A DNA stretch of 51,747 nt from Parabacteroides acidifaciens (GTDB taxonomy: Bacteria; Bacteroidota; Bacteroidia; Bacteroidales; Tannerellaceae), in NCBI RefSeq assembly GCF_003363715.1, contig NZ_QREV01000035.1:1-51747 (forward strand), written 5' to 3'. Each line of letters opens with the position of its first letter. The first letter of the stretch is position 1. Made by a program: the position numbers and the translations under genes. The notes under the pieces were generated by a model that did not search any database, was not told the origin of the DNA, and worked only from the letters and a program-made list of their open reading frames with translations. This document shows positions 626 to 31,670 of this stretch, piece by piece.

Positions 626-3600
626 TTACTTTACAATAGCCTTTACAGCTTCTTCACCTTCGATCGATACGACAACTACACCAGCCGGAGCTGCGATTGT
701 TGCATTGTCGGAGTTGATAACTGCATTGGCAACTACCTGGCCTAAGATGTTAGTGATAACAACCTTCTTACCGGCAGCACCTGCGATTTCTACAGCGCCG
801 GCCTTAGCCATTACTCTGACTGTAGCGGCTTCGATGCTTTCGTTGGATGTTGCGCCACCTTCTGTTGTTGTCAGGCTGAATACTTCACCGTCTGTTACGT
901 TGTCAGGTGTCAGGCCGTAACCTGCAACTGAATTATGTTCACCCGTGATGTAGTTGACAACCGGACAGTTGTTGTAGATCTTAACCCAAGCACCATTCCA
1001 GGAACCGATAGCTGAATTTCCATCCAGGTTAGACTCGATCAGGAAGTTGTCTGTGTCACCTTCATTAGCATCTTCGATCAGACGGAAGGAGAACGACCAG
1101 TTGTTGTGCTTACCTGTTGTGTATTCTCTGCGATCTGTGTTTGCAGGATCAAACAGCTTACCCGGGATCAGTTTGCCTTGTTCGTTCTTCAGGTCTGCCA
1201 ATGTCTTGCCATTGGTCGGGATGTAGAAGAATTCTCCGGCCTTAACGGTACCTTCACCTAAGAATGCGTTGATCTTAGCTGCGTTTTCAGGAGTGATCAC
1301 CATGTGTACACCTTCAATGAATCCGAGACGTACGGCATAACCTTTGTATGTGTACATATCCGGATGGTTGTAAGCGTGAGAGCCTTTCGTTACGCTGTCG
1401 GCCAGGTTAACCAGGAAGCGACCTGCTGTGTAACCGTTGTAGAATACTACGTGGGTTGCGTCTTCCTTCTGGTCGATAGCATCTTCTACTGATTCGAAGT
1501 AGCCATGTGTATTTGTGTTACACCATACGCCGTCGCTAACTGTGTCTTTCTCGATTGCCAACATATATTGCGGCATGCGGGCAGCCATTGCGCGGAGCGG
1601 TTCTACGATGAATACCTTAGACTCGTCGCTTGCGTTCATTTTTTCCTGAGCCAGGCCTAAGTAGCTGAAGCCGTCGATTACGTTGGAAGCAGGTGCTCCT
1701 GTTTCGTTGGTCTTGTCTTCAAACAATTTCTGGTCAACGTTTCCTACCGTACGGAAGAAGTTAACGTTTGCTTCAGGGATCGAGCGATACAACGGACGAT
1801 CGTTTTCTTTCAGTGCGAATGCGGAAACCCGATCGTTCGGATTGTTGTTCAATGTATTGTATTCGACATAACCGTTTGCATCCACTACACTGGCACGACG
1901 GTAGCCATAATACCAGTCTTCACAACAGTTGTTGATACGCGTGTCGATCAGTGCATAGCAAGTAGCGTCGCCGTCAACCTGGTCGTTCTTCAGATAGAAA
2001 GAAGACAGAATAGCGAGGCCGTTTGCACGGATGTCCTTGATACCTCTCGCGATATAGTAACCGTTAGCAGCTTCGGCTGTATTCATAGCTACATAAGTCG
2101 TGTCGTTGTCAATCAGGTTGACATCTTTTACTTTCAGTACATAGCGCTGACGTACCAATTGAGGCAATACTACTCCGCTGTTTGCATCGAGTACACCGGC
2201 ACCGTAACCGAATTCATTCAATGTCATCTTAGTGCCATTGTAAGCATAAACAGTGTCTAATTCGTAGTAAGAATTGTCACCAGTCGTTACTTTCAACAGT
2301 TCGTTAGACTGTACATTCAGATACTTGTCACCATTGTTATGGTTGTAGCGTAATGCATAGTTCGTGTAAGGCAGAACTTCCGGTTCGATATAGCCATAAC
2401 CGTGGTATCTGCTTGTCAGAGCGGTCTTGTCTTCAACCGGTTTGATTTCGTAGTTGTCAGTCAGAAGTAACCGGCCACTCGGTATCATTCTTTCAGTTGT
2501 CATATAGTTTCCGAAGTAGTCGCCATACGTGTTATCGATGATAAAGTAGCGTCCGTCTTCTTCATACAGCTGACCTGTAAAGAGATCATTGCATGGCGCT
2601 CCGAATTCGCGGTTGTGGATTGTAACCAGGTCGCCGCAGTCGCTACCATACTTTTCAACAACCCACATGGTTGCCGGCATCTGTTTGTAGTCCTGAGCAT
2701 CCAGTTCTTCAACATCGTACATCAACATACCGTAGAAGTTATCAACGAGGTATCTTCCTGCATTCACTCCGTCTTTAGCCTTGATCGTGTACAGACCCGG
2801 ATTCAGGGTTGCACGTTTCAGGTGTGTGAATTTATTGTTGAATGCCATACGACATTTCAGAGGTCTTGCATCTGCAGCGTCAGCGATAGCAGCTGTCAGG
2901 CAGTTGCCGGAATTGCTAAGGTCTTCGAGTTTCAATACGATTTCAGTACCGTTGTTTGTCCAGGAGTTACTTGCCTGTGAAGCGTTAGCCTGAACATCCG
3001 AACCGTAAGCAAAATGAGTAGCTACCCAAGATTCTGCCCAAGATTTCTTAGCCGTATAGTCTGCTACGCTCTTTTCAGAAGCGTTCAGCGGTTCGATCAC
3101 CAAGCTGTCCAAAGTAGGATAGTAGGTGAAGTTATAGAAGAAACGGGCACGAAGCGGAGCTGGTGAGCTTGCATTGTAGGTTTCATGTTTCAACTTCAGG
3201 TTCGCGTTCATCGGAGAAACCGAATTACCCTGCCAGAAAGCGGTATCGACCATCAGGTAAGTACCTTTCTGATCATTCATGTATTGCAGTTTCATGAAGT
3301 GATTTCTGCAGTTGAGCAGGTATTGAGTCTGTGCATTTGCTACGTTATAGGTATTTAACCGGGCTTCTGCATCAGCTAATGCTTTTTCGCAATTATTATA
3401 TCTTTCCAATGCGGCTTTATAAGCATTTTGAGCATTGATCAGATTTTCGTTTGCAGTAGCGAGAAGGCCTTTAAATAATTTGAGGTTGTTGTAGACTATT
3501 TTATAATTATTATAATAGGTCTCTTTTTCCCCGTCAAACGCAGCCAAAGCCATGCTTACTTTTTGCCTATCTCGCCCAGTTAAAACTGACATAGCTGCAC

Positions 3601-4891
3601 TACCTGTAGTTATAGCCGCTTCAATTTTTGCAATGGAGTCTGTTTCGCGATGGAATATATCTTTCTGTGTTAAATAATTATTATTACGTTGCAGGTCTCT
3701 GTTATCAATAGATTCGGCAGTTGCAACAATCATCATGGCTACATCATAGGCAGCATCAAATCCATTTTGCAGAGTGGCTAATTCTCCTTCGTTATATTGA
3801 ATGGTGCTCTCTACTATGTTTTTAAATGCTTGTGCATTAGTCAAATCTGCTTCAGCTCCAGAACTGTTTTCTCCACCATAAAGAGTCCGTTCTGCATCTT
3901 CCAAATCGAGTCTTGCAAAATTAGCAGCCATCAAAGCGCTCTCATATTCATCTGGGTTTGTTGTCCCGCCTAATTGGCTAACCGATGCCCGATAGAAGTC
4001 GAGGATGGCAGTGTAGTCATCTTCTGCTTGGTAAGCCATGTCTGCATCCATAACACCACCTGTGTTCGGAGTGATTTCAACGGCATCGTCCAGACCTTGT
4101 TTACCTTCGAAGAACAGGAATTTAGCCCATTTCTTATCTACGGATGGCTTGTGATAGTCTATCATCGAATTGAAGGCATAAGAGTCCAACGTGATAGGAG
4201 CAGCTTCGACCGGTTGGATCTTTAAGGCATGGATCGCTTCCGAGTTGTTGATCATCTCGTTTTTCGAACCTTTGCGTGAGTACACGTAACCGTCATAGCT
4301 ACGGCTCATTGTGATCACAGAGTCTTTTGTGAAATAGGCATAAGGTGCCACTTCTCCGAAGTCACTGCTGTTCTGAGAGTCGGTGTTATACCATTCCCAG
4401 TTTTCAACACAGCTTTTAACCATCCAGCTCGGATCTCCCAAGGCTTGGTTTTGATAGTTAGTCGAAGCGGCAAATGCAGGATCGAATGTCAATTCTACGT
4501 TTGTCTCTTTGTTGATGAATTTCCATTTGCCACCACCGACAGTATTATCTTCATCATAGACCAACTTCCACAAAGAAGGATTCAACGGCGCATTTTCAGC
4601 CGGGACCAAACGCAAGTAAAGCTTACCTGTCATCATGTCGCGATACTGAACCAATACTTCTTGCTTGCTGGGGTTGGGTCTGTCAGCCTGCATGTAACGT
4701 GGGTTGTAGTGAGTTGATGTTCTCAACTGGTACCATTTGTCAGATTGAATCTGATTCACGGTCTTAGTTGGAAAAGCAGCTCTTACATCAGCTCTACGAA
4801 ACTCATAAGGTCTTTCAGGAACCGCAGCGTTCGTAGCTACTGAACCGGCTACCAGGGCGGTAGCCATCAGAGTAGAAAACAATTTGTTCAT
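626..4891 (-). CDS. Large secreted DUF6383-type surface protein, phase-variable candidate
   Basis: The protein has 1421 residues. Residues 1-23 form a signal peptide (start MNKLFSTLMATALVAG, cleavage after TNAA). The body is a long beta-rich repeat region with no catalytic motif I recognise. The last 70 or so residues contain KKVVITNILGQVVANAVI and end GEEAVKAIVK, a DUF6383-type domain that resembles C-terminal sorting domains. It is a paralog of the 28509-31670 protein: both contain an F-TYYPT-DSL-I segment and a later MPA--W-V-K...NREF segment. Residues about 297-517 are a predicted helical, coiled-coil-like insertion absent from the paralog and encoded by visibly AT-richer DNA. The start matches the paralog's ATGAAC context. 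The upstream promoter lies in an invertible segment and currently points away, so expression should be OFF here. S-layer or surface-glycoprotein function is inferred from family and size. Confidence 0.85.
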   Translation of the reverse strand: MNKLFSTLMATALVAGSVATNAAVPERPYEFRRADVRAAFPTKTVNQIQSDKWYQLRTSTHYNPRYMQADRPNPSKQEVLVQYRDMMTGKLYLRLVPAENAPLNPSLWKLVYDEDNTVGGGKWKFINKETNVELTFDPAFAASTNYQNQALGDPSWMVKSCVENWEWYNTDSQNSSDFGEVAPYAYFTKDSVITMSRSYDGYVYSRKGSKNEMINNSEAIHALKIQPVEAAPITLDSYAFNSMIDYHKPSVDKKWAKFLFFEGKQGLDDAVEITPNTGGVMDADMAYQAEDDYTAILDFYRASVSQLGGTTNPDEYESALMAANFARLDLEDAERTLYGGENSSGAEADLTNAQAFKNIVESTIQYNEGELATLQNGFDAAYDVAMMIVATAESIDNRDLQRNNNYLTQKDIFHRETDSIAKIEAAITTGSAAMSVLTGRDRQKVSMALAAFDGEKETYYNNYKIVYNNLKLFKGLLATANENLINAQNAYKAALERYNNCEKALADAEARLNTYNVANAQTQYLLNCRNHFMKLQYMNDQKGTYLMVDTAFWQGNSVSPMNANLKLKHETYNASSPAPLRARFFYNFTYYPTLDSLVIEPLNASEKSVADYTAKKSWAESWVATHFAYGSDVQANASQASNSWTNNGTEIVLKLEDLSNSGNCLTAAIADAADARPLKCRMAFNNKFTHLKRATLNPGLYTIKAKDGVNAGRYLVDNFYGMLMYDVEELDAQDYKQMPATMWVVEKYGSDCGDLVTIHNREFGAPCNDLFTGQLYEEDGRYFIIDNTYGDYFGNYMTTERMIPSGRLLLTDNYEIKPVEDKTALTSRYHGYGYIEPEVLPYTNYALRYNHNNGDKYLNVQSNELLKVTTGDNSYYELDTVYAYNGTKMTLNEFGYGAGVLDANSGVVLPQLVRQRYVLKVKDVNLIDNDTTYVAMNTAEAANGYYIARGIKDIRANGLAILSSFYLKNDQVDGDATCYALIDTRINNCCEDWYYGYRRASVVDANGYVEYNTLNNNPNDRVSAFALKENDRPLYRSIPEANVNFFRTVGNVDQKLFEDKTNETGAPASNVIDGFSYLGLAQEKMNASDESKVFIVEPLRAMAARMPQYMLAIEKDTVSDGVWCNTNTHGYFESVEDAIDQKEDATHVVFYNGYTAGRFLVNLADSVTKGSHAYNHPDMYTYKGYAVRLGFIEGVHMVITPENAAKINAFLGEGTVKAGEFFYIPTNGKTLADLKNEQGKLIPGKLFDPANTDRREYTTGKHNNWSFSFRLIEDANEGDTDNFLIESNLDGNSAIGSWNGAWVKIYNNCPVVNYITGEHNSVAGYGLTPDNVTDGEVFSLTTTEGGATSNESIEAATVRVMAKAGAVEIAGAAGKKVVITNILGQVVANAVINSDNATIAAPAGVVVVSIEGEEAVKAIVK

Positions 4892-4990
4892 AATCCAATT
4901 AATTTAATTAATAAAAAAATATTTGAGCATCTATAAATTCTCTATCTTATGTACGCACGTATCTGGATGTTGAAATTCTGTAATTTGACT

Positions 4991-5173
4991 ACAAATACGT
5001 ACGTTTATTTTAGTCATTTTTTGAGGGTTCGTCCGGCTAAACGGGTTTTTTGTACTTGGTAAGCTATCTGATTGATAAGAAAGAATATAGAAAAAGAAAA
5101 ATTCTTTGGCAAAAGGGTTGCCGGTTTAAAAAGTATGCTTATTTTTGTGACGAAAATAAACGTACGTTTTTTT
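4991..5173. other. Invertible promoter segment bounded by 26-bp inverted repeats
   Basis: The left repeat at 4991-5016, read as reverse complement, matches the right repeat at 5148-5173 at 23 of 26 positions. It includes a perfect 15-bp core, AAAATAAACGTACGT. The 131 bp between them contain a promoter reading rightward, away from the 4891 start codon. The core AAACGTACGT fits ARACGTWCGT, the motif I recall for Mpi-controlled promoters of Bacteroides fragilis. Inversion would bring the promoter about 127 bp upstream of the ATG. Inverted repeats and promoter are seen directly; recombinase type and phase variation are inferred. Confidence 0.8.
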
Positions 5174-5390
5174 CGTCATTTCCTTTTGGATATCCTATCT
5201 GATTTATTACCAATAAGTTATAAGTTGATTTGTGGCTGTTTTTATCTTTGAAAAACAGGCGTTTTCTGAATTTTTGCAATTACTCATATATTTCTTATCT
5301 ATAGTTATTTACCTCGTTGTGTTGAAGTAATACTGCAAGTGAAAAAGTGCGGTTTTTGGAGAAAAGTGGGTAAATTAGGGTGGAAATGAG
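5105..5390 (+). repeat. Copy 2 of the direct repeat shared with the left window edge
   Basis: This corresponds to 1-290 in the same orientation, spanning the promoter, the half-site and a flank of about 200 bp beyond it. The two copies lie about 5.1 kb apart and bracket the 626-4891 gene, so homologous recombination between them would delete that gene. Divergence is clear, so such deletion may be rare. Confidence 0.7.
5118..5147 (+). promoter_or_regulatory. Promoter inside the invertible segment, OFF orientation
   Basis: TTGC at 5118-5121, 18 nt, then TATTTTTG at 5140-5147 give a good Bacteroidetes promoter. Upstream, about 5063-5100, an AT-rich block containing GATAAGAAAGAATATAG is nearly identical to 28317-28355 before the second surface-protein gene, so it is probably an activating or regulatory element. 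It reads toward the 3' end of the GH92 gene, away from the surface-protein gene. Confidence 0.7.
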
Positions 5391-5510
5391 GGGCGGGTAG
5401 TGCTGAATTATGGATTTTGGGTTATGATTTATGATTAAACTGCTGTTTTGGCTTTTAACTTCCATTTTTAATTTTCAATTAATTTCTCTGGCTTTCGTAT
5501 TTACAGAATG

Positions 5511-5573
5511 CAAATGAGCGCGGAATAACGCAGACTATTTTTTCTATTATCTGCGTTATTTCGCGCTCGTTTG
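5511..5573. terminator. Long hairpin between the promoter switch and the GH92 gene
   Basis: GAGCGCGGAATAACGCAGA (5516-5534) pairs with TCTGCGTTATTTCGCGCTC (5550-5568) at 18 of 19 positions plus one G-U. CAAA and TTTG extend the stem after one mismatch. It lies 39 bases beyond the GH92 stop codon and could end that transcript. It would also block read-through from the switch promoter in its present orientation. There is no strong U-tract. Confidence 0.6.
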
Positions 5574-5611
5574 TGTCATCAGCGTCCGGTAAATACGGAC
5601 TTAGCTGTTGA

Positions 5612-7819
5612 TTATTTTGCCGGCTGGTCGGTCATCGTGAATACCAGATTGCCGCCGTCCATGATGTCTTTGTGGCTGATGGTCAGGCCGGTTACCGGTT
5701 TGCCGTTGAGCTCGACGGATTTTACGTATTTATTGGCTTTCGACAGGCTTTTGGCTTCAACAGTGAAAGTCTTATTTCCGGGGAGTGAAAGCGAAACCTT
5801 TTCTATCTGTGGTGCGCCCAGCACATATTCGCCGCTGATCGGGTTGACAGGATAGAAGCCCATGGCCGAGAAAATATACCATGCAGACATCTGGCCGCAG
5901 TCGTCATTGCCGCACAGCCCGTCCGGTTTGGCGAGATAGAAACGGTCGAATATTTCACGGATTACCTGCTGCGTTTTCTCCGGGTGACCGGCGTAACTGT
6001 AGAGGTAAGCGACGTGGTGGCTCGGTTCGTTGCCGTGCGCATATTGTCCGATCAGGCCCGTAACATCCGATACGAAGCCGGTGTTTTCAGCCGTACTTTC
6101 CAGGAAGAACAGGGAATCCAACTTCGTCACAAAGGCTTCGTTTCCGCCCATGAGGTCGATCAAGCCTTGTACGTCGTGCTGTACGTGCCAGGTGTATTGC
6201 CAGGAATTGCCTTCCGTAAAGTCGCCACCCGATGAGCTGGCGTGTGACAACAGGAAGGAGTTGAACGGCGTGCGCCAGTTTCCTTTGGAGTCTTTTCCCC
6301 GCATCAGCTTGAGTTCCGGGTCGAACAGGTTCTTATAGAATCCGGCACGTTTGGAGAAGTGCTCGTAATCTTCCGTCTTGCCTAATGCTTTTGCCATCTG
6401 GGCGACACAATAATCGTCATAAGCGCATTCCAATGTCTTGGAAACGGATTCGGTATCGATGATATCGAACGGGAAGTAACCGTATTTCTCGAACGTTTCC
6501 CAATCGGAGTTGTAATGGCTCACGGTCGCACTGGCTTTGACCGCCTCATAAGCCTTTTCTGCGTCAAATCCTTTGAAGCCCTTCAGGTAAGCGTCTACAA
6601 TCACCGGAATGGCGTGGTTGCCGATCATGCAGAAATTCTCTTTTCCCCACAAAGCCCAGATAGGCAGGAAGCCCTGTATCTGTTGGTGGTCCAGCATTGT
6701 CTGGATCATGGCGTCGACTTTATCCGGGTTCAGGATCGTGTACAGCGGATGGGCGGCGCGATAGGTGTCCCAAAGCGAGAACGTTGAATAATATTCGCCG
6801 GTCAGGGAGGTGTGGACATTGTCGTCGATGCCCCGGTAGCGTCCGTCGGTGTCGGCAATGTTGTTCGGCTGCATCATCAGGTGATACATGGAAGTGTAGA
6901 AGCTGGTCTTTTCGTCTGTCGTTCCTGTAACTTGTGCACGGGCGAGGAGTGCTTGCCACTGGTCGTGCGTTGCCTGGCGGACAGCCTCGAAGTCCCATGC
7001 CGGGTTTTCTTTTTGCATGGAGGCAAGCGCACCGTCGATGCCGACGCTCGACATGGCAATTTTTACCTGCACGGCTTCACCCGGTTTCGTGTCGAATTCG
7101 AGTACCAGGCGTTTGGCCTTTTCCCCTTTCTCTGCGGGAAGTTCTTCTTTGACCGTGTAAGGATGGTCGAATTTGATGACATAGAAATAATGGCGTGTCA
7201 CCCAGGCGCGCGTCTGGTTGTGGCCGGTGATCGTCTGGTTGTCCGGCATCTCGATGTCGGCTTCCAGGACATGTGTTTTGAGGCTTTCCACACTGCCGAC
7301 CATGCCGCGTTGCAGGTCGAGGAGCAGGCGGGCAGGACCTTCGTTCTTGAATGTATAGCGGTGGAGAGCCGTGTGGGCGGTTGCCGTCATTTCTGCATCC
7401 ACACCGTAGTCCGACAAGGTGACGGCATAGTAACCCGGCGCAGCTTTCTGTGTGGATTTGTCGTATTCGCTTTTATACGTATTATTCTTTATATCGCCGC
7501 TGAAGGGGAAAAGCAGGATGTCTCCGAGGTCCGGGCAACCCGTTCCGTTGAGGTGCGTCTGGGCAAACCCTTCGATAAAGTTGTCGTCGTAGTTATATCC
7601 CGAACAATACCTCCACGAACCGACGCCGGATTCCGGGCTGGCTTGTATCAGGCCGAACGGGGCACAGGCGCCGGGAAACGTATGGCCGTTATCCGCATTT
7701 CCGATAAAAGGATTGACATACTGGCAATAATCTTCTTCGATATTGTCTTTACTTTGCGGTGCAGGGGCGCACGCGCTGACTATCCCTAACAGGGACAGCC
7801 CGATCAAAAGGTCCTTCAT
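5612..7819 (-). CDS. GH92 family alpha-mannosidase, lipoprotein
   Basis: A 735-residue glycoside hydrolase of family 92, which cleaves alpha-linked mannose with calcium and inversion of configuration. The N-terminus carries a lipoprotein signal ending VSAC with Cys17, so it should be anchored in the outer membrane or periplasm. Family landmarks are NPFIGNADNGHTFPGACAPFG near residue 35 (shown here as its conserved block), TEGNSWQYTW with Glu536 as probable general acid, and GNDDCGQMSAWY with Asp639/640 in the probable catalytic-base region. Length is normal. It follows a 69-residue membrane protein by 31 bp on the same strand and is divergent from the sigma/SusCD genes. This suggests a role in trimming mannose-containing glycans for the same uptake system. 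Linkage specificity cannot be read from sequence. Confidence 0.93.
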   Translation of the reverse strand: MKDLLIGLSLLGIVSACAPAPQSKDNIEEDYCQYVNPFIGNADNGHTFPGACAPFGLIQASPESGVGSWRYCSGYNYDDNFIEGFAQTHLNGTGCPDLGDILLFPFSGDIKNNTYKSEYDKSTQKAAPGYYAVTLSDYGVDAEMTATAHTALHRYTFKNEGPARLLLDLQRGMVGSVESLKTHVLEADIEMPDNQTITGHNQTRAWVTRHYFYVIKFDHPYTVKEELPAEKGEKAKRLVLEFDTKPGEAVQVKIAMSSVGIDGALASMQKENPAWDFEAVRQATHDQWQALLARAQVTGTTDEKTSFYTSMYHLMMQPNNIADTDGRYRGIDDNVHTSLTGEYYSTFSLWDTYRAAHPLYTILNPDKVDAMIQTMLDHQQIQGFLPIWALWGKENFCMIGNHAIPVIVDAYLKGFKGFDAEKAYEAVKASATVSHYNSDWETFEKYGYFPFDIIDTESVSKTLECAYDDYCVAQMAKALGKTEDYEHFSKRAGFYKNLFDPELKLMRGKDSKGNWRTPFNSFLLSHASSSGGDFTEGNSWQYTWHVQHDVQGLIDLMGGNEAFVTKLDSLFFLESTAENTGFVSDVTGLIGQYAHGNEPSHHVAYLYSYAGHPEKTQQVIREIFDRFYLAKPDGLCGNDDCGQMSAWYIFSAMGFYPVNPISGEYVLGAPQIEKVSLSLPGNKTFTVEAKSLSKANKYVKSVELNGKPVTGLTISHKDIMDGGNLVFTMTDQPAK

Positions 7820-7850
7820 GAATTAGAATATTATAATTATTATTGTATTG

Positions 7851-8060
7851 TTATTCCTTTTTCCCGTCTTTCATCTTTTCCCGTATCTTCAAGCGTTTGA
7901 TCTGCAAGAAACGCAAAAAACCGATCACAAGAACAGTCACTCCGATTACACAGAAATATTGTACATAATCAGGGTCTGCCTTTTTCCCGGGCCAACCGAT
8001 CACGCTCATCACGATCAGGTATATTAACAGGACTGCTGTTGTGATATTTATTTTCTTCAT
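7851..8060 (-). CDS. Small two-helix membrane protein
   Basis: A 69-residue protein with two hydrophobic segments, about residues 7-23 (TAVLLIYLIVMSVIGW) and 34-51 (QYFCVIGVTVLVIGFLRF), then a strongly basic tail rich in Lys and Arg. No catalytic motif and no recognised family. It begins the minus-strand unit with the GH92 gene, 31 bp apart, and has a TAAGTTTG -7 box just upstream. Role unknown; the shared promoter suggests co-expression with the mannosidase. Confidence 0.75.
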   Translation of the reverse strand: MKKINITTAVLLIYLIVMSVIGWPGKKADPDYVQYFCVIGVTVLVIGFLRFLQIKRLKIREKMKDGKKE

Positions 8061-8084
8061 CGACTCTTCTTGTATTTAAACATG

Positions 8085-8092
8085 CAAACTTA
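8085..8092 (-). promoter_or_regulatory. -7 box for the membrane protein/GH92 unit
   Basis: On the minus strand this reads TAAGTTTG, matching TAnnTTTG, 25 bases upstream of the 8060 start codon. No good -33 element is visible. It lies 11 bases from the -7 box of the divergent sigma gene, so the two promoters overlap and could not easily be occupied together. Confidence 0.5.
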
Positions 8093-8103
8093 AAGAAAAA
8101 AAT

Positions 8104-8111
8104 TATCTTTG
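8104..8111 (+). promoter_or_regulatory. -7 box for the ECF sigma gene
   Basis: TATCTTTG is an exact match to TAnnTTTG, 64 bases before the 8176 start codon. The -33 region is weak. It is divergent from the box at 8085-8092. Confidence 0.6.
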
Positions 8112-8175
8112 CCGGCCAGAAAGCGCGAAAAGTCAGATTTATGCATATCTTTATCCGCGAATTTAGGATACAATT

Positions 8176-8745
8176 ATGAAAGGCGAATCCGAGATACACT
8201 CTTTTAATCAGTTATATTCTGACTATAAAAGTCGTTTTGTCCGTTTTGCCAATACATATGTCGGCGACAGTATGATTGCGGAAGATATAGCGATCGAAAG
8301 TCTGATGTATTATTGGGAGAACAGGGGGAATCTTGCGCCCGAATCGAACGTGCCGGCTTATATCCTGACTGTAATCAAGCATAAATGTTTAAACTACCTT
8401 CAGCGTTTGCGTACGCAGGAAGATATAGTTGAGTATTTGAAGGATTGTGATACGTGGGAACTGAACTTGCGTATCGCCACCCTGGAAGCCTGCAATCCCG
8501 AGAAATTGTTTTCCGACGAAGTGATCAGTTTGGTCACTAAAGCCTTAGAAACATTGCCGGAACAGACGCGTGACATCTTTATCCGCAGTCGCTACAACAA
8601 CCAAAGCCATAAGGAGATCGCAGATGCCCTGGGCGTCTCGACAAAAACGGTGGAGTATCATGTCACCAAAGCCCTAAAAGTCATGCGTGTAGCCTTAAAG
8701 GATTACTTCCCTTTACTGGCATTCTTTCCCCGTTTCTTCTGCTGA
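8176..8745 (+). CDS. ECF-type RNA polymerase sigma factor (sigma-70 family)
   Basis: A 189-residue extracytoplasmic-function sigma factor. Region 2 lies at about residues 10-75 (SDYKSRFVRFANTYVGDS, then YYWENR). Region 4 lies at about 115-175, with the helix-turn-helix segment SHKEIADALGVSTKTVEYHV. Bacteroidetes sigma factors of this kind work with a FecR anti-sigma factor and an STN-containing SusC, and both follow directly here. It is expected to direct transcription of the SusCD operon, and possibly the GH92 unit, when the cognate glycan reaches the outer membrane. The ATG is 64 bases after a good -7 box. Confidence 0.93.
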   Translation: MKGESEIHSFNQLYSDYKSRFVRFANTYVGDSMIAEDIAIESLMYYWENRGNLAPESNVPAYILTVIKHKCLNYLQRLRTQEDIVEYLKDCDTWELNLRIATLEACNPEKLFSDEVISLVTKALETLPEQTRDIFIRSRYNNQSHKEIADALGVSTKTVEYHVTKALKVMRVALKDYFPLLAFFPRFFC

Positions 8746-8851
8746 GATTTGCTCCCGGCAAATCACCTGTTACAACTTAATTAAAAAAAAGTTTCATTTC
8801 AGGTTAGGGATGTTTTCCGCTTATTTGCTTTATAAGTAGAAACGGAAAAAG

Positions 8852-9793
8852 ATGGAAAAAGAAACATTATATAAATTCTTTGACGGAAAAGCATCTCGCG
8901 AAGAGAAGGACGCTATTCGCGCTTGGCTGGAAGCCTCTCCTGAAAACGAAAAAGAGCTTTTCAGGGAACGTGAGTTCTTTGACGCGATGATACTGTCGGG
9001 AAGCGGCAAGGAGGCGGACAAGGGCAAGAAGGCGCGTCCTTTCTATATGATCGCCATGCTCGAACTGATGAAAATCGCTGCCGTATTTGCGATTACGATT
9101 GCTTGCGGAACTTATTACTATACATCGGAAATCCAAAAGATCGGGCAGACGATGAATACGATCACCGTCCCTTCCGGCCAGCGTGTGAACCTGACTCTTC
9201 CGGACGGAACGAATGTCTGGCTGAACGCCCGCTCGGAACTGCGCTATCCGGCTGTCTTTACCGGTGACAGACGGGAAATAATCCTGGACGGGGAAGGCTA
9301 TTTTGAGGTTACTCATAATGTGGAAAAGCCTTTTATCGTACAGACGAGCAAGTGTAATGTGGAAGTGCTGGGAACGAAGTTCAACGTGGAGGCGTACAGT
9401 GATTCGGAAGATTTTTGCACTTCGCTGATGGAAGGCTCTGTAAGGGTTTCCAGCACGAAGAACCCGTCGATGAACCTTGTCCTGACTCCCAACCACCAAG
9501 CCTCTTTGGTCGACGGACAGTTGCAGGCGAAGTTGATATCCGATTTTGACCTTTTCCGCTGGAAAGAAGGGTTGATCTGCTTTAAGAATATGGACTTCAA
9601 GCAATTGATGGCACGCTTTGAGAAATGCTACGGCATACGTATTATTATAGAAAACCAGCAGGTGGGCGATTATGTCTGTAGCGGTAAGTTCCGTATATCG
9701 GATGGGATAGATAATGCGTTGCGCATCCTGCAGAGAGACGCGAAATATACATTCGAGCGGAATAAAGACGAATCAGTTGTCTATATAAAATAA
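8852..9793 (+). CDS. FecR family anti-sigma factor
   Basis: A 313-residue inner-membrane anti-sigma factor. Residues 1-65 are a charged cytoplasmic domain expected to hold the sigma factor. One transmembrane helix lies at about 68-88 (LMKIAAVFAITIACGTYYYT). The periplasmic FecR domain contains TVPSGQRVNLTLPDGTNVWL and DGEGYFEVTHN. A C-terminal DUF4974-type segment starts near FKNMDFKQLMARFEKCYGI and would contact the STN domain of SusC. The order sigma, anti-sigma, SusC, SusD is the standard cell-surface signalling arrangement. Codon use resembles its neighbours. Confidence 0.93.
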   Translation: MEKETLYKFFDGKASREEKDAIRAWLEASPENEKELFREREFFDAMILSGSGKEADKGKKARPFYMIAMLELMKIAAVFAITIACGTYYYTSEIQKIGQTMNTITVPSGQRVNLTLPDGTNVWLNARSELRYPAVFTGDRREIILDGEGYFEVTHNVEKPFIVQTSKCNVEVLGTKFNVEAYSDSEDFCTSLMEGSVRVSSTKNPSMNLVLTPNHQASLVDGQLQAKLISDFDLFRWKEGLICFKNMDFKQLMARFEKCYGIRIIIENQQVGDYVCSGKFRISDGIDNALRILQRDAKYTFERNKDESVVYIK

Positions 9794-9844
9794 GTAATAT
9801 AACGTAATGTTTAATCTTAAAATGTAATGCCTATGGTTAGAGAG

Positions 9845-9900
9845 AAAGGTTAACCTTTAAGCAAAAAAATGCCGACAAGCGTCCCCACACTTATCGGCAT
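9845..9900 (+). promoter_or_regulatory. Palindrome and hairpin in the susC leader
   Basis: AAAGGTTAACCTTT at 9845-9858 is a perfect 14-bp palindrome. Ten bases on, ATGCCGACAAGCGT and ACACTTATCGGCAT (9869-9900) form a stem of about 14 bp with two mismatches and a CCCC loop. Both lie between the anti-sigma gene and susC. They could be an operator plus a processing or attenuation hairpin; neither function is shown by the sequence. Confidence 0.5.
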
Positions 9901-9949
9901 AGACTTAACACAATTAATTAACTGTATTAATAAACTTGATTTCAAAGAT

Positions 9950-12900
9950 ATGAATAAAAAATCTTTGTCGATGTCTGATTTAGTAAAAAGGCCTCGATGT
10001 AAACAATTTTTTAGAATCATGAGAATAACCACATTGTTATTATTCGTGTTCATTTTCTGCATGCACGCGGAAAATTCCAATTCCCAGAACGTGAACGTCA
10101 CAATTAAAAGAAGTAACACGGAACTGGAGAATGTGTTGAACGACATTGAAAAACAAACTGATTTTTTGTTTGTTTACAACAATTTTGTAAACGTCAACAG
10201 GAAAGTGTCTGTTAACTTGAAAAAAGCCTCTTTGGAGGAAGTCTTGGCAAACCTGTTCGAAGGAACAGATGTGAAGTATTCCATCGACGGCTCCTACATC
10301 CTGCTTTCCGCAGGTGGAACAACGACTGCCATTCCCTTGTCGGCCCAGCAGGGCAAAACAATCACCGGAGTTATTGTGGATGACAACGGTGAACCGGTTA
10401 TCGGCGCCAATGTTGTCGAAAAGGGTTCGAGGTCGATCGGTACGGTAACCGATGTGGACGGTAAATTCTCTTTGGCACTGAGCAATCCTTCCGCTACGCT
10501 GGTTGTGTCTTACATCGGCTATTTGACGAAGGAAGTGCCCGTTGGCAACCAGTCTGCGCTGCGGATTACGTTGGCGGAAGATACCCAGAATCTGGAAGAA
10601 GTAGTGGTAATCGGTTACGGTACGGTAAAGAAGAGCGACTTGACCGGTTCTGTCGGCTCCATCCAGGTAGACAAGGTGCAAGGTCTTGCCATCAAATCTG
10701 TAGACCAGATGTTGCAGGGACGTACTTCCGGTCTGTATATGGTACAAAACTCCGGTATGCCGGGTGCCAGCTCTACGGTTCGTATTCGTGGTGGTAACTC
10801 TATTTCCGGAGGTAACGAACCGCTGTATATCATCGACGGTATGCCGGTTTACCCGAGTGCGGATAACAGCCAGACGGCGTTGAGCCCGTTGAACTCGATC
10901 CCGACGTCGGACATCGAGTCGATCGAAGTTTTGAAGGATGCCTCTTCAACGGCTATCTACGGTTCCCGCGGTGCCAACGGTGTTATCATTGTGACGACCA
11001 AGAAGGGTAAAAGCGGAAAGACTTCCGTTGCTTTTGATGCTTATTGGGGCATTCAGAATATTTATAAGAAATATGATTTGCTGGATGCCCGTTCATTCGA
11101 GAAACTGGCGAATGCTTCCTTGGTAAACTCCGGCGGTGCAGCCGTTTATGACGAAAGCGCACCTCCCGCAACTACGGACTGGCAGGGATTGACGTCTAAC
11201 GACAATGCGCTGACCCAGAATTACCAGGTGAGTATTTCCGGCGGAAACGACAAGACTTCATTCCTGACCTCTTTCAACTATTTCAACCAGGAAGGTGTCG
11301 TCAAGGCGACAGAGATGGAGAAATATGCTTTCCGTGCCAATATCGACCACAAGATATCTTCTACGATTAATTTCGGATTGAACCTGACCATGACGAAGGT
11401 TGACAATAACCGGGTCGGGAACTCAATTCTTACGTCCCGTCTGACTACGCCGCCGAACCTGCCCGTGTACGACGAAAACGGCAACTATACGTTCAGCGAT
11501 GCCAATGGCGTGATCATGTTCGATAACCCGGTTGGCGTATTGAATGAAAAGGTGGACTGGCATACTTCTTTCCGTTCATTGGATAATGCTTTTGTCGAAT
11601 GGACGATCCTTAAAGGGTTGAAGTTTAAATCTTCATTCGGTATCGACATCGAATATGCAACAAATAAAAGCTACAATCCCCGCTCTGTCTATTCCGGTAG
11701 CCAGAGAAGCGGTGAAGCCAAGAAATCGTCTGCCAATACCTATACATGGATTAATGAAAACATCCTGACTTATACGAATACATGGGGAATGCATTCTTTT
11801 ACAGGAATGGTTGGTTATACGCAGCAGTCTTCTACGTATGACGGCTTCAACGCCGGTTCATACGGTTTCCTGAATGACAACTTGCAAATGAACAACCTGG
11901 GATCTGGTACGACTTACACGGCTCCGGGTTCGGATGTGAGGAAATGGGCCTTGAATTCTTATCTGGCACGTGTCAACTATACGTTGAACAATAAGTATTT
12001 GCTGACTGCCTCTATTCGTGCCGACGGTTCTTCCCGCTTTGGTAAGGACAACCGTTGGGGATATTTCCCTTCTGCCGCTTTGGCTTGGAGAGCTTCCGAA
12101 GAATCGTTCATCAAAGACTTGAATATCTTTAGTAATTTGAAACCGAGAATCAGTTTCGGTATTACGGGTAACCAGGACGGTATCGGTACTTATCCTGCTT
12201 ATGCATTGCTGGGTTCGACCGGTTATGTAAGCGATGGCGATAAAGTGACCGGTTATTATCCTTCACAGGTTGCCAATACGAACTTGAAGTGGGAAACGAC
12301 AGCCCAGTTTGACGCAGGTATCGATTTCGGCTTTTTCAATAATCGCCTGACAGTCGTTCTTGACGGTTATATCAAGAAGACGCACGACTTGCTGCTGAAT
12401 GTTAAGATACCGGGATCTTCCGGCTTCTCTTCCGGACTGAAGAATATCGGTGAAGTGAAAAATAAAGGTTTTGAATTGGCGATCAATGCGACGCCGGTAG
12501 AAGGCGATTTCACTTGGAATACAAGTTTGAACCTGACATACAACAAGAATAAAGTATTGGATCTGGGTGATGTCTCTTTCATTTACCCGAGCCAGCCGGG
12601 ACAGGACGAGACCGGTACGCATCTCGGACGTATCATACAGGTCGGACAGCCGTTGGGAACATTCTACGGATATGTTTATGACGGACTTTTCAGCACGACG
12701 GACGATATCAAATCTTCCGCCCAGCCGACAGCCCAGCCGGGAGATATCCGGTTTAAGGACATCAGCGGACCGGACGGCGTTCCCGACGGACAGATCAATG
12801 ACCTCGACCGTACCATTATCGGTTGTGCACAGCCTAAAGTGTTCGGAGGTTTCAATAATACCTTCTCTTATAAGAATTTCGATTTGAATGTAAATACGAT

Positions 12901-13330
12901 TTTCTCTTTAGGAAATGATGTGTATAACGGTACGAGAGTGATGATGGAAAACATGCAAGGCTCGAGCAATATGTTTGCATCGGTTGTGAACCACTGGACC
13001 GAGTCGAACCAGAATGCGGCTTTCCCGCGCCCGCTCCGTTCAAAAGCCGTGATGCGCGTGTCTGACCAGTATGTGGAAAACGGTTCTTACTTCCGTTTCC
13101 AGAATATCACGCTGGGCTATAATGTGCCTACCGATTTCTTAAGCTTCACGAAATATGTCTCTGCTTTGCGTGTTTACGCTTCTTTGCAGAACTTCTTTAC
13201 GATTACGAGCTATTCGGGCGATAATCCGGAAGTGAGTAAATACGGTCAGGATAACCTGGGCGCCGGATATGATGCTTTCTCCTATCCGTTTGCGAAATCA
13301 GTGTTGTTTGGTTTGAATGTTAAATTCTAA
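9950..13330 (+). CDS. SusC/RagA family TonB-dependent outer-membrane transporter with STN domain
   Basis: A 1126-residue protein counted from ATG 9950. An in-frame ATG exists at 9869, but it sits in the leader hairpin and adds residues atypical for the family. Order of parts: a basic N-terminus and signal segment ending CMHAENSNSQ; an STN signalling domain (VNVTIKRSNTELENVLNDIE onward); a carboxypeptidase-regulatory-like domain beginning TITGVIVDDNGEPVIGANVV; the TonB plug with YGTVKKSDLTGSVGS and VRIRGGNSISGGNEPLYIID; and a beta-barrel ending SVLFGLNVKF. It imports oligosaccharides captured by SusD, driven by TonB. The STN domain links transport to the FecR/sigma pair upstream. It lies 16 bp before susD. 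Confidence 0.95.
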   Translation: MNKKSLSMSDLVKRPRCKQFFRIMRITTLLLFVFIFCMHAENSNSQNVNVTIKRSNTELENVLNDIEKQTDFLFVYNNFVNVNRKVSVNLKKASLEEVLANLFEGTDVKYSIDGSYILLSAGGTTTAIPLSAQQGKTITGVIVDDNGEPVIGANVVEKGSRSIGTVTDVDGKFSLALSNPSATLVVSYIGYLTKEVPVGNQSALRITLAEDTQNLEEVVVIGYGTVKKSDLTGSVGSIQVDKVQGLAIKSVDQMLQGRTSGLYMVQNSGMPGASSTVRIRGGNSISGGNEPLYIIDGMPVYPSADNSQTALSPLNSIPTSDIESIEVLKDASSTAIYGSRGANGVIIVTTKKGKSGKTSVAFDAYWGIQNIYKKYDLLDARSFEKLANASLVNSGGAAVYDESAPPATTDWQGLTSNDNALTQNYQVSISGGNDKTSFLTSFNYFNQEGVVKATEMEKYAFRANIDHKISSTINFGLNLTMTKVDNNRVGNSILTSRLTTPPNLPVYDENGNYTFSDANGVIMFDNPVGVLNEKVDWHTSFRSLDNAFVEWTILKGLKFKSSFGIDIEYATNKSYNPRSVYSGSQRSGEAKKSSANTYTWINENILTYTNTWGMHSFTGMVGYTQQSSTYDGFNAGSYGFLNDNLQMNNLGSGTTYTAPGSDVRKWALNSYLARVNYTLNNKYLLTASIRADGSSRFGKDNRWGYFPSAALAWRASEESFIKDLNIFSNLKPRISFGITGNQDGIGTYPAYALLGSTGYVSDGDKVTGYYPSQVANTNLKWETTAQFDAGIDFGFFNNRLTVVLDGYIKKTHDLLLNVKIPGSSGFSSGLKNIGEVKNKGFELAINATPVEGDFTWNTSLNLTYNKNKVLDLGDVSFIYPSQPGQDETGTHLGRIIQVGQPLGTFYGYVYDGLFSTTDDIKSSAQPTAQPGDIRFKDISGPDGVPDGQINDLDRTIIGCAQPKVFGGFNNTFSYKNFDLNVNTIFSLGNDVYNGTRVMMENMQGSSNMFASVVNHWTESNQNAAFPRPLRSKAVMRVSDQYVENGSYFRFQNITLGYNVPTDFLSFTKYVSALRVYASLQNFFTITSYSGDNPEVSKYGQDNLGAGYDAFSYPFAKSVLFGLNVKF

Positions 13331-27915: not shown

Positions 27916-28371
27916 TTGCTACAGGCGATTCTCCGGGAGTTAAGCTTTATCACTTTGCCGGTGTTTCCGGTTTCAGGTAATCAAATTGCACGTTTTTTCA
28001 GACAGCCTGCGCACCTCGCTCCATCTCTTGTCAGTAAAGAGGGATAAAACCATGAAAAGAGTCAATCCAAAATCGATCAAGATTTCGGACGAAATAGAAA
28101 AAACGGCAGGGAAGGGGGTTCTTGTATATTCTTCCGGTTTTATTCGGAGCTATAAACAACTATTTGTAAATTAAAATCTATTATTAATGTACGCGTGTAC
28201 ATAAATACAATGCGTCTTTATAAGAACCAGTGCGAAACCGGGAGATGTTATCGCTTGATATCTTGCCCTTCGCTTTCTTGGTTCGTGTTGGAAAGAGGCG
28301 TTTTCGTACGAAGTAGGCTATCTTGTTGATAAGAAAGAATATAGAAAAGGAAAAAATATTAAGGAAAAGGA

Positions 28372-28401
28372 TTGCCGATTTAAAAGTTATGCGTATTTTT
28401 G
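28372..28401 (+). promoter_or_regulatory. Promoter of the DUF6383 gene, fixed forward orientation
   Basis: TTGC (28372-28375), 18 nt and TATTTTTG (28394-28401) match the invertible promoter at 5118-5147 in spacing and surrounding sequence. The AT-rich upstream block at 28317-28355 is also shared. The expected half-site after the -7 box is degenerate (GGTACGCATT in place of AAACGTACGT), and no matching left repeat is visible, so this copy appears locked ON. Confidence 0.75.
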
Positions 28402-28508
28402 CCAAAAGAATTTGGTACGCATTAGTGATTGATTATAAAGTATTGGAAGCGTACATATTATTGGATTGAACTTATTACACTTTAGTATTAATATTAAATT
28501 ATTTGATT

Positions 28509-31500
28509 ATGAACAAAAAGTTTTCTACTCTTGTAGCTGGTGCTGCGCTCTTACTTGGTGCGGTGTCGGCTAATGCGCAAGTAGGGTTTGATGGCGACAT
28601 TAAGCTGAAGGAAGGACAGAGCGAGAATCTCTACCAAATTCAGATTAAAGGTGGCTACCTTACAATTAATGAAACAGGGAAGTTGGATACTGTAAATACA
28701 GTAACTTCTAAAAATTTAGCAAGAACATTGTGGTGTGTTACTGTTGGCAAGGAAGTACAGGGACAGCAACCTAAGTTTGACTTTTTGAATAAAGGAGCTC
28801 AAGCTTATTTGGATGTAACTATGGACGGACTTGCTGGTGCAGCTTATGCTCCTGAAGTTTCTTATCCTGCTGCCGATACAGCTGCTGTTGGTGGTGAAAT
28901 TGGTGGTTGGGCTTATTCTTCTGTTTATAAGAATGGTATTGAATTAAACAAGCCTCTTTTCTCTTATTTTACTCCGGACTCTGTTGTGGGTCTTGTAATT
29001 GATGGCAGTGTTGTCAAATTGAAAAAAACAAGTGCAGATAAGATTGCTACAGTTTTCACAGACTCTGTATCGTTGGTTAAGGCTGATGCTATCGAGTTGA
29101 ATGCAGAAGAAATTAATACTGTTTTAGGCTCTCAGAAAGCTACTGACGGTGTTGATTTGACTTTTACTCCTGACGTAAAAGGTACAGATCTTAAGAATCC
29201 GTTTAAAGTGGGTAAATTCTTAGCAGTTCAGGCTACTACTGATGGATCTACTGCTGATGGTCATTTTGTAAATGTTTTGAGCAAGGACTCTTCTTATTTG
29301 TATGTAGATACTTCTTATACAAATGTTATTGGTGCTGCAAAATTCCTGGCTTATAAATGGTCTGATTTGAGATATGCTACTATTGGTAAATCTGCTCAGG
29401 ATTCTATTAAAGACAATGCACTTGCATCACAATTTAAGTTCTTGTTTACTTACTATCCTACAAACGACAGTTTGGAAATCCAAGTAAAGGATGTGATGTT
29501 TGAAGATGCAACTGGTGTTTTCGTTGATACTCCGACTGATTCTGTATATGTTTCTTTGCAGGAATTAGTTAAGGATCAGACTCGTATTTTGACAGTTGAC
29601 TCTGTTGCTCAGAATACAAGAATTGGTTTTGGTTATAAGGGTTGTGGTACTATTACAAGCGATAAGACTTCTAAGGATAATGGTTTGTATGTTATCTATA
29701 ACGCTAAAGGTCAGGTATTAGCTTCTCCTATCCACAAAAATGGTTCTGCTTATGAATGGGTAACTCTTGATGAACAAGATCCTGAACATATGCCGGCTTA
29801 TCAGTGGTTGGTACAAAAGACTCAGAATTCTGAAACGTTGAAAGCTACTTCTCCGCTTAAGATTACAAACCGTGAGTTTAAACACAATACAACTGTTCAG
29901 TTACGTTCAAAAGATGATAAGATTACTGCAGATGCATTTAGCTTTACTGGCGTTAGTGTTGCTGCTGGTTCTGTAGTCAGATTCGAACAGATCACAGACT
30001 CTACAATCTTGAAAGATTCTTATCTGGGATATAGAAAGTTCGATAAAGATAGCTTGAAGGTTGCTAAATATAAATTCAACTATTTGCATCCGTATGCTCA
30101 GGATAAGTGGATTAAGAGAGGTGAAGGTAAAGACTCTGTTTTGTATGCTACAGATGGTTATACTGCATTTACTATCTCTGAAGGTACACAGGTTAACTAT
30201 GGTGAAAATCCTGCAAATGTTGATGGTTTGAAGGGTATTGCTAAATTGTACAGAAATCAGTATTTGATTTCTTTGAATGCTGATACTGTAGGTGTTGGTG
30301 CTGAAAATAAGATCGTTTTAGGTCAAGTTGTTTTGGATAGTGTATATTTCAAAGAAAATAACCACTATGATAGCAACCACTATTATGCAATTGTAGAGGC
30401 ATCTGCTAATGCAATCGCTTCAAATAAGTTTGGTGTCGCTGATGATGGTATGACTGCAAACTTGAAATCTCAGCCGCTGGCTGAAACAAGAACTTCTGCA
30501 TTTGCAATCAAAGTTGATGATGTTCCTTTGTATCGTCGTTTCAACAATGTAGCTTTGAATGAAAGTGCAACTGATGGCGCTGATACATTGCGTTTCATGG
30601 AAACAATTCGTAAAGAATACTTGATGGATGAAAACAACCGTGAAGGTGGTTTGATGGATAAGAATGTTAACTATCTGGGTATCTGGACTGCTGATAAGGC
30701 AACAGGTCTTGGATTCCATGTTGATACTGCTTGGGTTACACGTGGTTTAGGTTATATCAAACCGCAGTACTTGATCTCTGTAGATCGTACAGTCGTTCCT
30801 GCTAAGGGTGGTTATATCTGTGAAGAAACAACTGGACATATCACTGCTGATGGTACACCGACAGACAACGCTGAAGAATGCTACCACTCTAAACCGGGTG
30901 TTGCTGGCTTCGTTCATGCTAAGTTCTTAGTAAGCTTTGCTGACTCTGCAGCTGCACATGGATTTGATAAACCTTATACAGATATTAAGAATGGTTACAC
31001 TCGTGTTGGTTTTGTGAAAGCTATTCAGTCTGGTGATAAACTCTTTATCTTGGTTAATGGTTTTGAAAACATGAAACCGGAAGATCTGGATACTGCTACA
31101 GTAGCTAAAGCTTATACGGACGCTAAGATTTATAACACTTATGTTAAATCTTTGAAGAATGATAATCATAAGAACTATACTTGGTCATTCCGTTATGTAA
31201 CTCCTGAAACTGCTGCTAATGTTGTAAAAGAAGGTCCGGAAAATTCATTCTTAATTGAATCTGCTTCTTACGAACCGGTAGCAGCAAACAACAGAGATAT
31301 CGCTCCTGAAAAAGCAGCTTGGATTAAGATGCAGAATGGTTGCATTGTCTTGACAGACAAATCTTCTACATTCTCTAATGCTAAGACTGGTGGTGACGGT
31401 GCATTGGTGTTCAATGTTGAAAACAAAGAAAACGATGATCTGGCAACAGACAACGAAGCAATCGCTACATCTGAAGTAACAGTTATTGCTCAGAACGGTG

Positions 31501-31670
31501 CTGTAAGAATTGCTAACGCTGAAGGCAAGAAAGTTGTTATCACTAACATCTTAGGCCAGACAATTGCTAACACAGTAATCACTTCAAGCGACGCTGTAAT
31601 CGCTGCTCCTGCCGGTGTAGTTGTTGTAGCTGTTGAAGGCGAAGAAGCTGTAAAAGCTATCGTTAAATAA
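28509..31670 (+). CDS. Large secreted DUF6383-type surface protein, constitutive candidate
   Basis: A 1053-residue paralog of the 626-4891 product. The ATG at 28509 (two codons inside a longer TTG-initiated frame) gives MNKKFSTLVAGAALLLGA, a signal peptide ending SANAQ and matching the paralog's start. The body is beta-rich. The C-terminus holds KKVVITNILGQTIANTVI and ends GEEAVKAIVK. It lacks the coiled-coil insertion of the paralog. Codon choice differs sharply from neighbouring genes, favouring GCT, GGT, GTT, TCT and AAC, as expected of a very highly expressed gene; foreign origin is a less likely alternative given the paralog. A locked-ON promoter lies 107 bp upstream and strong hairpins follow. 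Best guess: a major S-layer-type or surface glycoprotein. Confidence 0.85.
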   Translation: MNKKFSTLVAGAALLLGAVSANAQVGFDGDIKLKEGQSENLYQIQIKGGYLTINETGKLDTVNTVTSKNLARTLWCVTVGKEVQGQQPKFDFLNKGAQAYLDVTMDGLAGAAYAPEVSYPAADTAAVGGEIGGWAYSSVYKNGIELNKPLFSYFTPDSVVGLVIDGSVVKLKKTSADKIATVFTDSVSLVKADAIELNAEEINTVLGSQKATDGVDLTFTPDVKGTDLKNPFKVGKFLAVQATTDGSTADGHFVNVLSKDSSYLYVDTSYTNVIGAAKFLAYKWSDLRYATIGKSAQDSIKDNALASQFKFLFTYYPTNDSLEIQVKDVMFEDATGVFVDTPTDSVYVSLQELVKDQTRILTVDSVAQNTRIGFGYKGCGTITSDKTSKDNGLYVIYNAKGQVLASPIHKNGSAYEWVTLDEQDPEHMPAYQWLVQKTQNSETLKATSPLKITNREFKHNTTVQLRSKDDKITADAFSFTGVSVAAGSVVRFEQITDSTILKDSYLGYRKFDKDSLKVAKYKFNYLHPYAQDKWIKRGEGKDSVLYATDGYTAFTISEGTQVNYGENPANVDGLKGIAKLYRNQYLISLNADTVGVGAENKIVLGQVVLDSVYFKENNHYDSNHYYAIVEASANAIASNKFGVADDGMTANLKSQPLAETRTSAFAIKVDDVPLYRRFNNVALNESATDGADTLRFMETIRKEYLMDENNREGGLMDKNVNYLGIWTADKATGLGFHVDTAWVTRGLGYIKPQYLISVDRTVVPAKGGYICEETTGHITADGTPTDNAEECYHSKPGVAGFVHAKFLVSFADSAAAHGFDKPYTDIKNGYTRVGFVKAIQSGDKLFILVNGFENMKPEDLDTATVAKAYTDAKIYNTYVKSLKNDNHKNYTWSFRYVTPETAANVVKEGPENSFLIESASYEPVAANNRDIAPEKAAWIKMQNGCIVLTDKSSTFSNAKTGGDGALVFNVENKENDDLATDNEAIATSEVTVIAQNGAVRIANAEGKKVVITNILGQTIANTVITSSDAVIAAPAGVVVVAVEGEEAVKAIVK

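Follow-up and report, generated by a model that had tools for sequence, protein, structure and literature searches.

Two open reading frames, a minus-strand gene for a predicted DUF6383 surface protein and a GH92 gene (5612-7819), flank a short promoter-bearing segment in the window analysed here, which is the whole 51,747-nucleotide contig C74 of the Parabacteroides acidifaciens genome (G000; 5.10 Mb in 144 contigs); other G and C codes denote the genomes and contigs compared. The segment is enclosed by two inverted-repeat arms, and a homologous promoter and second DUF6383 gene lie further along the window (Table 1).

Table 1 Positions of the switch, the two DUF6383 genes and related features in the window
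Feature	Position	Strand	Remarks
Lone related site beside the contig edge	43-74	+	promoter end reads rightward
DUF6383 gene, predicted surface protein, presumably under the switch	626-4891	-	1421 aa; Pfam PF19910, 101.6 bits (cut-off 23.7)
Gene-proximal arm, putative recombination site	4986-5016	+	TGAC-N7-ACGTACGT-N8-GTCA; central dinucleotide TA
Putative invertible segment between the arms	5017-5147	+	holds the conserved TATCTGATTGATAAGAAAG at 5065-5083
Promoter	5118-5147	+	TTGC-N18-TATTTTTG; directed away from the 626-4891 gene (OFF)
Gene-distal arm	5148-5178	-	plan TGAC-N7/8-ACGTACGT-N7/8-GTCA; central dinucleotide TA
Homologous promoter without flanking repeats ("locked ON" paralogue)	28319-28401	+	faces its gene
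Second DUF6383 gene, behind the locked-ON promoter	28503-31670	+	102.1 bits; start used in the analysis, 28509

A promoter between inverted repeats faces away from a DUF6383 gene

The arms are 31 nt each, complementary at 27/31 positions and separated by 131 nt. When the region 4700-5700 is shuffled 60 times under a first-order Markov model, no 31-nt inverted repeat lying within 300 nt exceeds 22 matches. A preliminary description of this DNA had placed 26-bp repeats at 4991-5016 and 5148-5173 with 23/26 matches, and we find that this match is correct as a core, with the full arms extending to 31 bp. Each arm contains the core AAACGTACGT and is partly palindromic in itself. The promoter has the Bacteroidota form, with a -33 element and a -7 box TAnnTTTG, and is directed away from the 626-4891 gene as had been proposed; from 4600 to 5700 the minus strand carries no TAnnTTTG. 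By arithmetic, a flip about the arm centres would bring the end of the -7 box to ~5017, ~120 nt 5' of the start codon. The interval from the switch to the GH92 gene holds a strong hairpin (5511-5534/5550-5573; 24 nt, 92%), possibly a terminator that would also halt OFF-state transcripts.

The attached gene indeed encodes the DUF6383-type protein described earlier, with the domain at the C-terminus, which ends in the conserved ...EEAVKAIVK; the T9SS tail model TIGR04183 (C-terminal sorting domain) scores 17.6 bits, below the cut-off of 23 (other score, 15.2). A published table (PMC9722745) gives DUF6383 a putative role as T9SS targeting domain, and the C-termini of Tannerella S-layer proteins are stated elsewhere to resemble those of the putative B. 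distasonis S-layer glycoproteins (PMC4030854). The product is likely an exported, S-layer-like glycoprotein. The genome holds 28 DUF6383 matches, 21 of them strong (≥97 bits), and the gene studied here is one of these 21 paralogues, at least 11 of which have a switch of their own.

Related segments and a long site motif across the genome

Homologous promoter segments precede 12 DUF6383 genes in the studied genome. Repeat arms flank 11 of these, and all 11 are OFF, i.e., directed away from their own gene; one arm is cut by a contig end at C93:107 and two pairs on C80 are degenerate. The twelfth is the armless segment of the window, which faces its own gene. As for the remaining nine strong DUF6383 genes, six are too near a contig end to call (C60:98, C105, C118:160, C80:158, C7 and C8), C112 and C115 have unrelated upstream regions, and C72 is not callable; a spurious match inside a gene (G000:C80:27973) was excluded. 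The genes at G000:C112:106120 and G000:C115:20583 are 85% identical and have in common a quite different upstream region without a switch, and upstream regions like theirs are seen by eye in G040 and G052. Contigs C60, C67, C105 and C118 begin or end exactly at the site core, as is expected indistinguishably from repeats and from mixed orientations. The single site at the left edge of the window probably belongs, as distal arm, to a neighbouring switch that is OFF for a gene to its left and is broken by the contig end.

The preliminary description also matched the core to ARACGTWCGT as the Mpi motif of B. fragilis: the core is present in both arms, the attribution to Mpi is putative, and the string is not found in the literature searched. 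As a detector the bare 10-mer proved unspecific and was rejected, with 83 places genome-wide (42+41) versus 61 (31+30) for a reversed control. The long site TGAC-N6-10-ACGTACGT-N6-10-GTCA is specific, with 20 occurrences in the studied genome and none for its reversed control; it is present in 5 of 123 family genomes, where the reversed control gives zero except for one genome with one.

A further site pair (C64:13975-14006, with a second arm near 14162) is located before a SusC-type operon (L040), one arm carrying a core mismatch, with a promoter-like TATCTTTG between the arms directed away from the operon; this looks like another OFF-oriented switch. We rejected the reading of C64:13987 as a lone perfect site left as a deletion scar, as the second arm (one core mismatch) is found 175 bp further, and also rejected the pairs at G043:1334522, G046:1494629 and G045:498376 as orthologues of this pair, since only 40-42 nt at the site align.

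Central dinucleotides are matched within switches and differ between them

Across the genomes compared, 96 homologous segments are found in 14 genomes, 85 of which contain TTG[CTA]-N18-TAnnTTTG and 84 of which have both arm cores at ≥8/10; the 12 dropped by this threshold are nine armless segments that face their gene, the cut C93:107 and two degenerate pairs. Comparing the central NN of ACG-NN-CGT in the left arm with that of the reverse-complemented right arm, we find that they are automatically scored as equal in 82/84 segments, against a mean of 43.9 and a maximum of 59 in 20,000 within-genome permutations. Both automatic mismatches (G035:2999916 and G040:1707934) are by eye AT/AT and TT/TT, the script having chosen the wrong 12-mer, and the dinucleotides of the two degenerate pairs outside this count (G040:1596430 and G069:3356318) also agree by eye. 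Seven further segments from G053 and G058 include five with both arms, and here the dinucleotide is equal by eye in 5/5. Strand-neutral classes are AT (32), TA (24), TT/AA (21), GT/AC (4) and TC/GA (1), with three classes in the studied genome and a maximum of four in G069. Agreement is about equally frequent at the remaining core positions (74-83/84), aided by the core-picking procedure, and what is special to the dinucleotide is only that it varies between switches yet stays matched within each.

Serine recombinase sites with mismatched 2-bp overlaps are reported to give trace recombinants at most (PMC11607074), and matched pairs are therefore expected. Switches of different dinucleotide classes within one genome would then be kept apart. 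In the literature searched, which took in few subscription papers, we found no publication describing classes of this kind in Bacteroidota.

Inversion between species and a census of orientations

Loci G043:3205542 and G046:2845302 have collinear flanks around a 207-bp block between sites that is reversed. With the cuts placed at the site centres, the flank on the gene side matches at 104/104 positions and the far-side flank at 183/230; the segment itself is identical at 161/184 positions when reversed, and only four bases can be aligned unreversed. The G043 copy is OFF and the G046 copy ON at this orthologous locus, and the proteins encoded by the two genes are 61% identical. Inversion is thus seen across species at one orthologous locus, and we infer from the sequences that the switch may likewise flip in the studied strain.

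A census based on gene and promoter positions finds 4 of 81 arm-flanked DUF6383 switches ON in nine genomes (95% interval 1.4-12%), with OFF/ON counts of 11/0 (G000), 9/0 (G035), 18/0 (G040), 8/0 (G043), 3/1 (G045), 7/1 (G046), 17/1 (G069), 2/0 (G052) and 2/1 (G057), G052 and G057 being sampled in part. The census leaves out one G045 segment 2.2 kb from its gene and includes one G069 segment whose recognised open frame is short and lies 3.7 kb away; 18 DUF6383 genes in six of the census genomes are without a recognised segment. Single segments from G042, G044, G050, G064 and G067 are all five OFF, and the one G037 gene fetched is ON, its arms lying outside the assessment. Each of the nine census genomes also has one recognised armless segment, which faces its gene in 9/9 cases. 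The OFF bias may stem from the equilibrium of the enzyme, from selection during culture or from assemblers reporting the majority form. We do not claim mutual exclusion of ON switches, as 4/81 ON predicts zero or one per genome under independence too. B. fragilis is known to have an invertible promoter that is biased to OFF and operated by a tyrosine recombinase (PMC4747536).

An Mpi-family invertase is the candidate enzyme

The studied genome encodes five Resolvase-domain proteins, four small and one of 674 aa, and the four small ones were scanned with the NCBIfam model NF009949 ("master DNA invertase Mpi family"). The intact ORF at C35:35440-36060 scores 321.9 bits (cut-off 272), and the other three (C5, C134 and C123) score 92.8-187.1 bits, below the cut-off. 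The serine invertase anticipated in the preliminary description is therefore present, away from the switch in the sense only of a different contig, and was picked as the cognate enzyme among the four by family score only.

Within the 38 genomes of the genus, to which the invertase search was restricted (the long-site search took in the 123 family genomes), 35 have a relative of the candidate (E ≤0.001), and the five genomes with the long site are exactly the five of the 38 with an Mpi ≥91% identical. This co-occurrence lends weak support, because the five species are near relatives. In G053, four of six segments keep both arms (by eye), and the best Mpi relatives are either full-length at 30% identity or split at 43-47% (C427:3151-3426 on the plus and 3671-3979 on the minus strand), a split that reflects either an artefact of assembly or an intragenic inversion; these armed segments, with only a 30% or split Mpi, argue against a simple Mpi/site rule. 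One arm-flanked segment is found in G058, whose Mpi relative is 57% identical.

Taken as a whole, the locus is best explained as an Mpi-type phase-variation switch, OFF in this assembly, that controls the DUF6383 surface protein, to which we assign a probability of roughly 0.9. This agrees with the preliminary description: arms, promoter direction and an invertase candidate are all found, and orthologous segments of two other species have opposite orientations. Anatomy, family, orientation, invertase candidate and inversion between species at one locus are all read from DNA. The Mpi-family invertase would bind the two inverted sites, a presumed enzyme-site match, cut at the central TA of ACG-TA-CGT and flip the ~160-bp promoter segment. 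As assembled, the promoter would fire away from the gene, leaving the surface protein silent, and after inversion the gene would be transcribed with a ~120-nt leader.

That the switch is real and is worked by a different recombinase, either one of the three additional small serine enzymes in the genome (C5, C134, C123) or a tyrosine enzyme as at P. distasonis capsule loci, seems to us unlikely. Capsule switches are reported in P. distasonis (PMC12118408) and called tyrosine-type (PMC8400631), but the site shares nothing obvious with the capsule-switch inverted repeat of that species, none of the six ORFs scanned in the window (from the interval 626-13330, plus 28503-31670) encodes a recombinase, the matched central dinucleotides fit a serine recombinase, and the three small serine enzymes fall below the Mpi cut-off. 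We consider a relic switch, fixed in the OFF state in the studied strain, quite improbable. The 11/11 OFF orientation of its armed segments and the degenerate cores of the two C80 pairs would fit such a relic; however, the arm cores at 4986 and 5148 and the invertase ORF are intact, G046 and G043 have one orthologous switch in the ON and the OFF state, respectively, and four contigs (C60, C67, C105 and C118) end at a site core, although mixed orientations and plain repeats both give such ends. A chance repeat or terminator-like palindrome that is no recombination site, to which the palindromic character within each arm might point, is scarcely credible given the identical architecture before many paralogues, the cross-species inversion and the dinucleotide matching.

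A locus behind an armless promoter keeps its neighbours and not its coding sequence

The neighbours of the 28509 gene are 77-98% identical, with their order kept, in G043, G045, G046 and G052, whereas the DUF6383 protein at this locked locus is only 40-49% identical across these genomes. At the DNA level, G046 and G043 align as far as the opening 25 nt of the gene, and the alignment picks up again within its 3' part. The locked protein is common to G045 and G046 (86%), and its closest relatives in the studied genome and in G043 are encoded at switchable loci, C60:98 (76-77%) and G043:3222374 (77-81%), so that one coding sequence has occupied both locus types in different species. C60 is collinear with G043 locus X downstream, and the end of C118 upstream; C73 and C102 were rejected as the far side of locus X because the C118 end aligns there. 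Locus X in the studied genome is thus C118/C60, with the segment itself unassembled and no orientation call. The changing locked coding sequence may come from exchange within the genome or from acquisition from outside.

A palindrome like ATGTACGCGTGTACAT is observed at 28187-28202, upstream of the locked promoter, and at 4949-4964, and similar copies are seen by eye close to many DUF6383 switches in other species. Within the window alone its occurrence does not exceed chance expectation; it is a possible operator.

Three patterns go beyond the literature found and appear new: the matched dinucleotides, the 4/81 ON switches beside one armless copy, and the armless locus that keeps its neighbours and not its coding sequence. 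We tentatively entertain a picture, conceivable though rather speculative, in which one invertase serves many switches insulated by two-letter addresses, and a permanently ON locus exchanges coding sequence with the switchable loci. If true, surface variation would operate in two layers, promoter flipping and cassette swapping.

Relation to known systems

The switch itself is of a known type, that of the Dgp glycoproteins of P. distasonis and the Mpi switches of B. fragilis. Fletcher et al. (2007, PNAS) are said to have described the phase-variable glycoprotein (Dgp) family of Parabacteroides (Bacteroides) distasonis, and Coyne (2003) reportedly described the Mpi-controlled promoter switches of Bacteroides fragilis. 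Like the Dgp family, the genes studied here encode large surface proteins of the same genus in multiple copies (21 strong DUF6383 genes), with 11 arm-flanked segments; unlike it, they belong to a different species than P. distasonis, and the identity of DUF6383 proteins with Dgp is putative. DgpA and DgpC are presumed S-layer glycoproteins, C-terminally related to Tannerella S-layer proteins, according to PMC2943079, PMC8400631 and PMC4030854.

The B. fragilis Mpi acts on 13 regions, seven of them polysaccharide promoters, according to PMC5903667 and PMC4747536. An Mpi-family serine invertase and many dispersed promoters are features of both systems, but the targets identified in this analysis are individual genes for surface proteins, plus one SusC-type operon, rather than capsule operons; several dinucleotide classes coexist per genome in the set analysed here. 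Tyrosine-recombinase capsule and S-layer switches of P. distasonis and B. thetaiotaomicron, as described in PMC12118408 and PMC8400631, similarly use invertible promoters for surface structures. They differ in their inverted repeat, an adjacent integrase gene and a longer segment (314-345 bp in P. distasonis); an integrase gene is absent beside the switch studied here, where the flanking ORFs are DUF6383 and GH92.

The switch adds another species to a known surface-changing strategy of gut Bacteroidales. The comparison also yields two ideas open to direct testing: that the central dinucleotide serves as a natural address preventing cross-recombination among the switches of one invertase, and that a genus-wide surface-protein family is nearly all silent in sequenced cultures, save for one fixed-promoter copy. 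In G035, which is presumably P. distasonis, all nine arm-flanked DUF6383 switches are OFF and one armless segment faces its gene, and the core is mostly ACG-AT-CGT, versus mostly ACG-TA-CGT in the clade of the studied genome.
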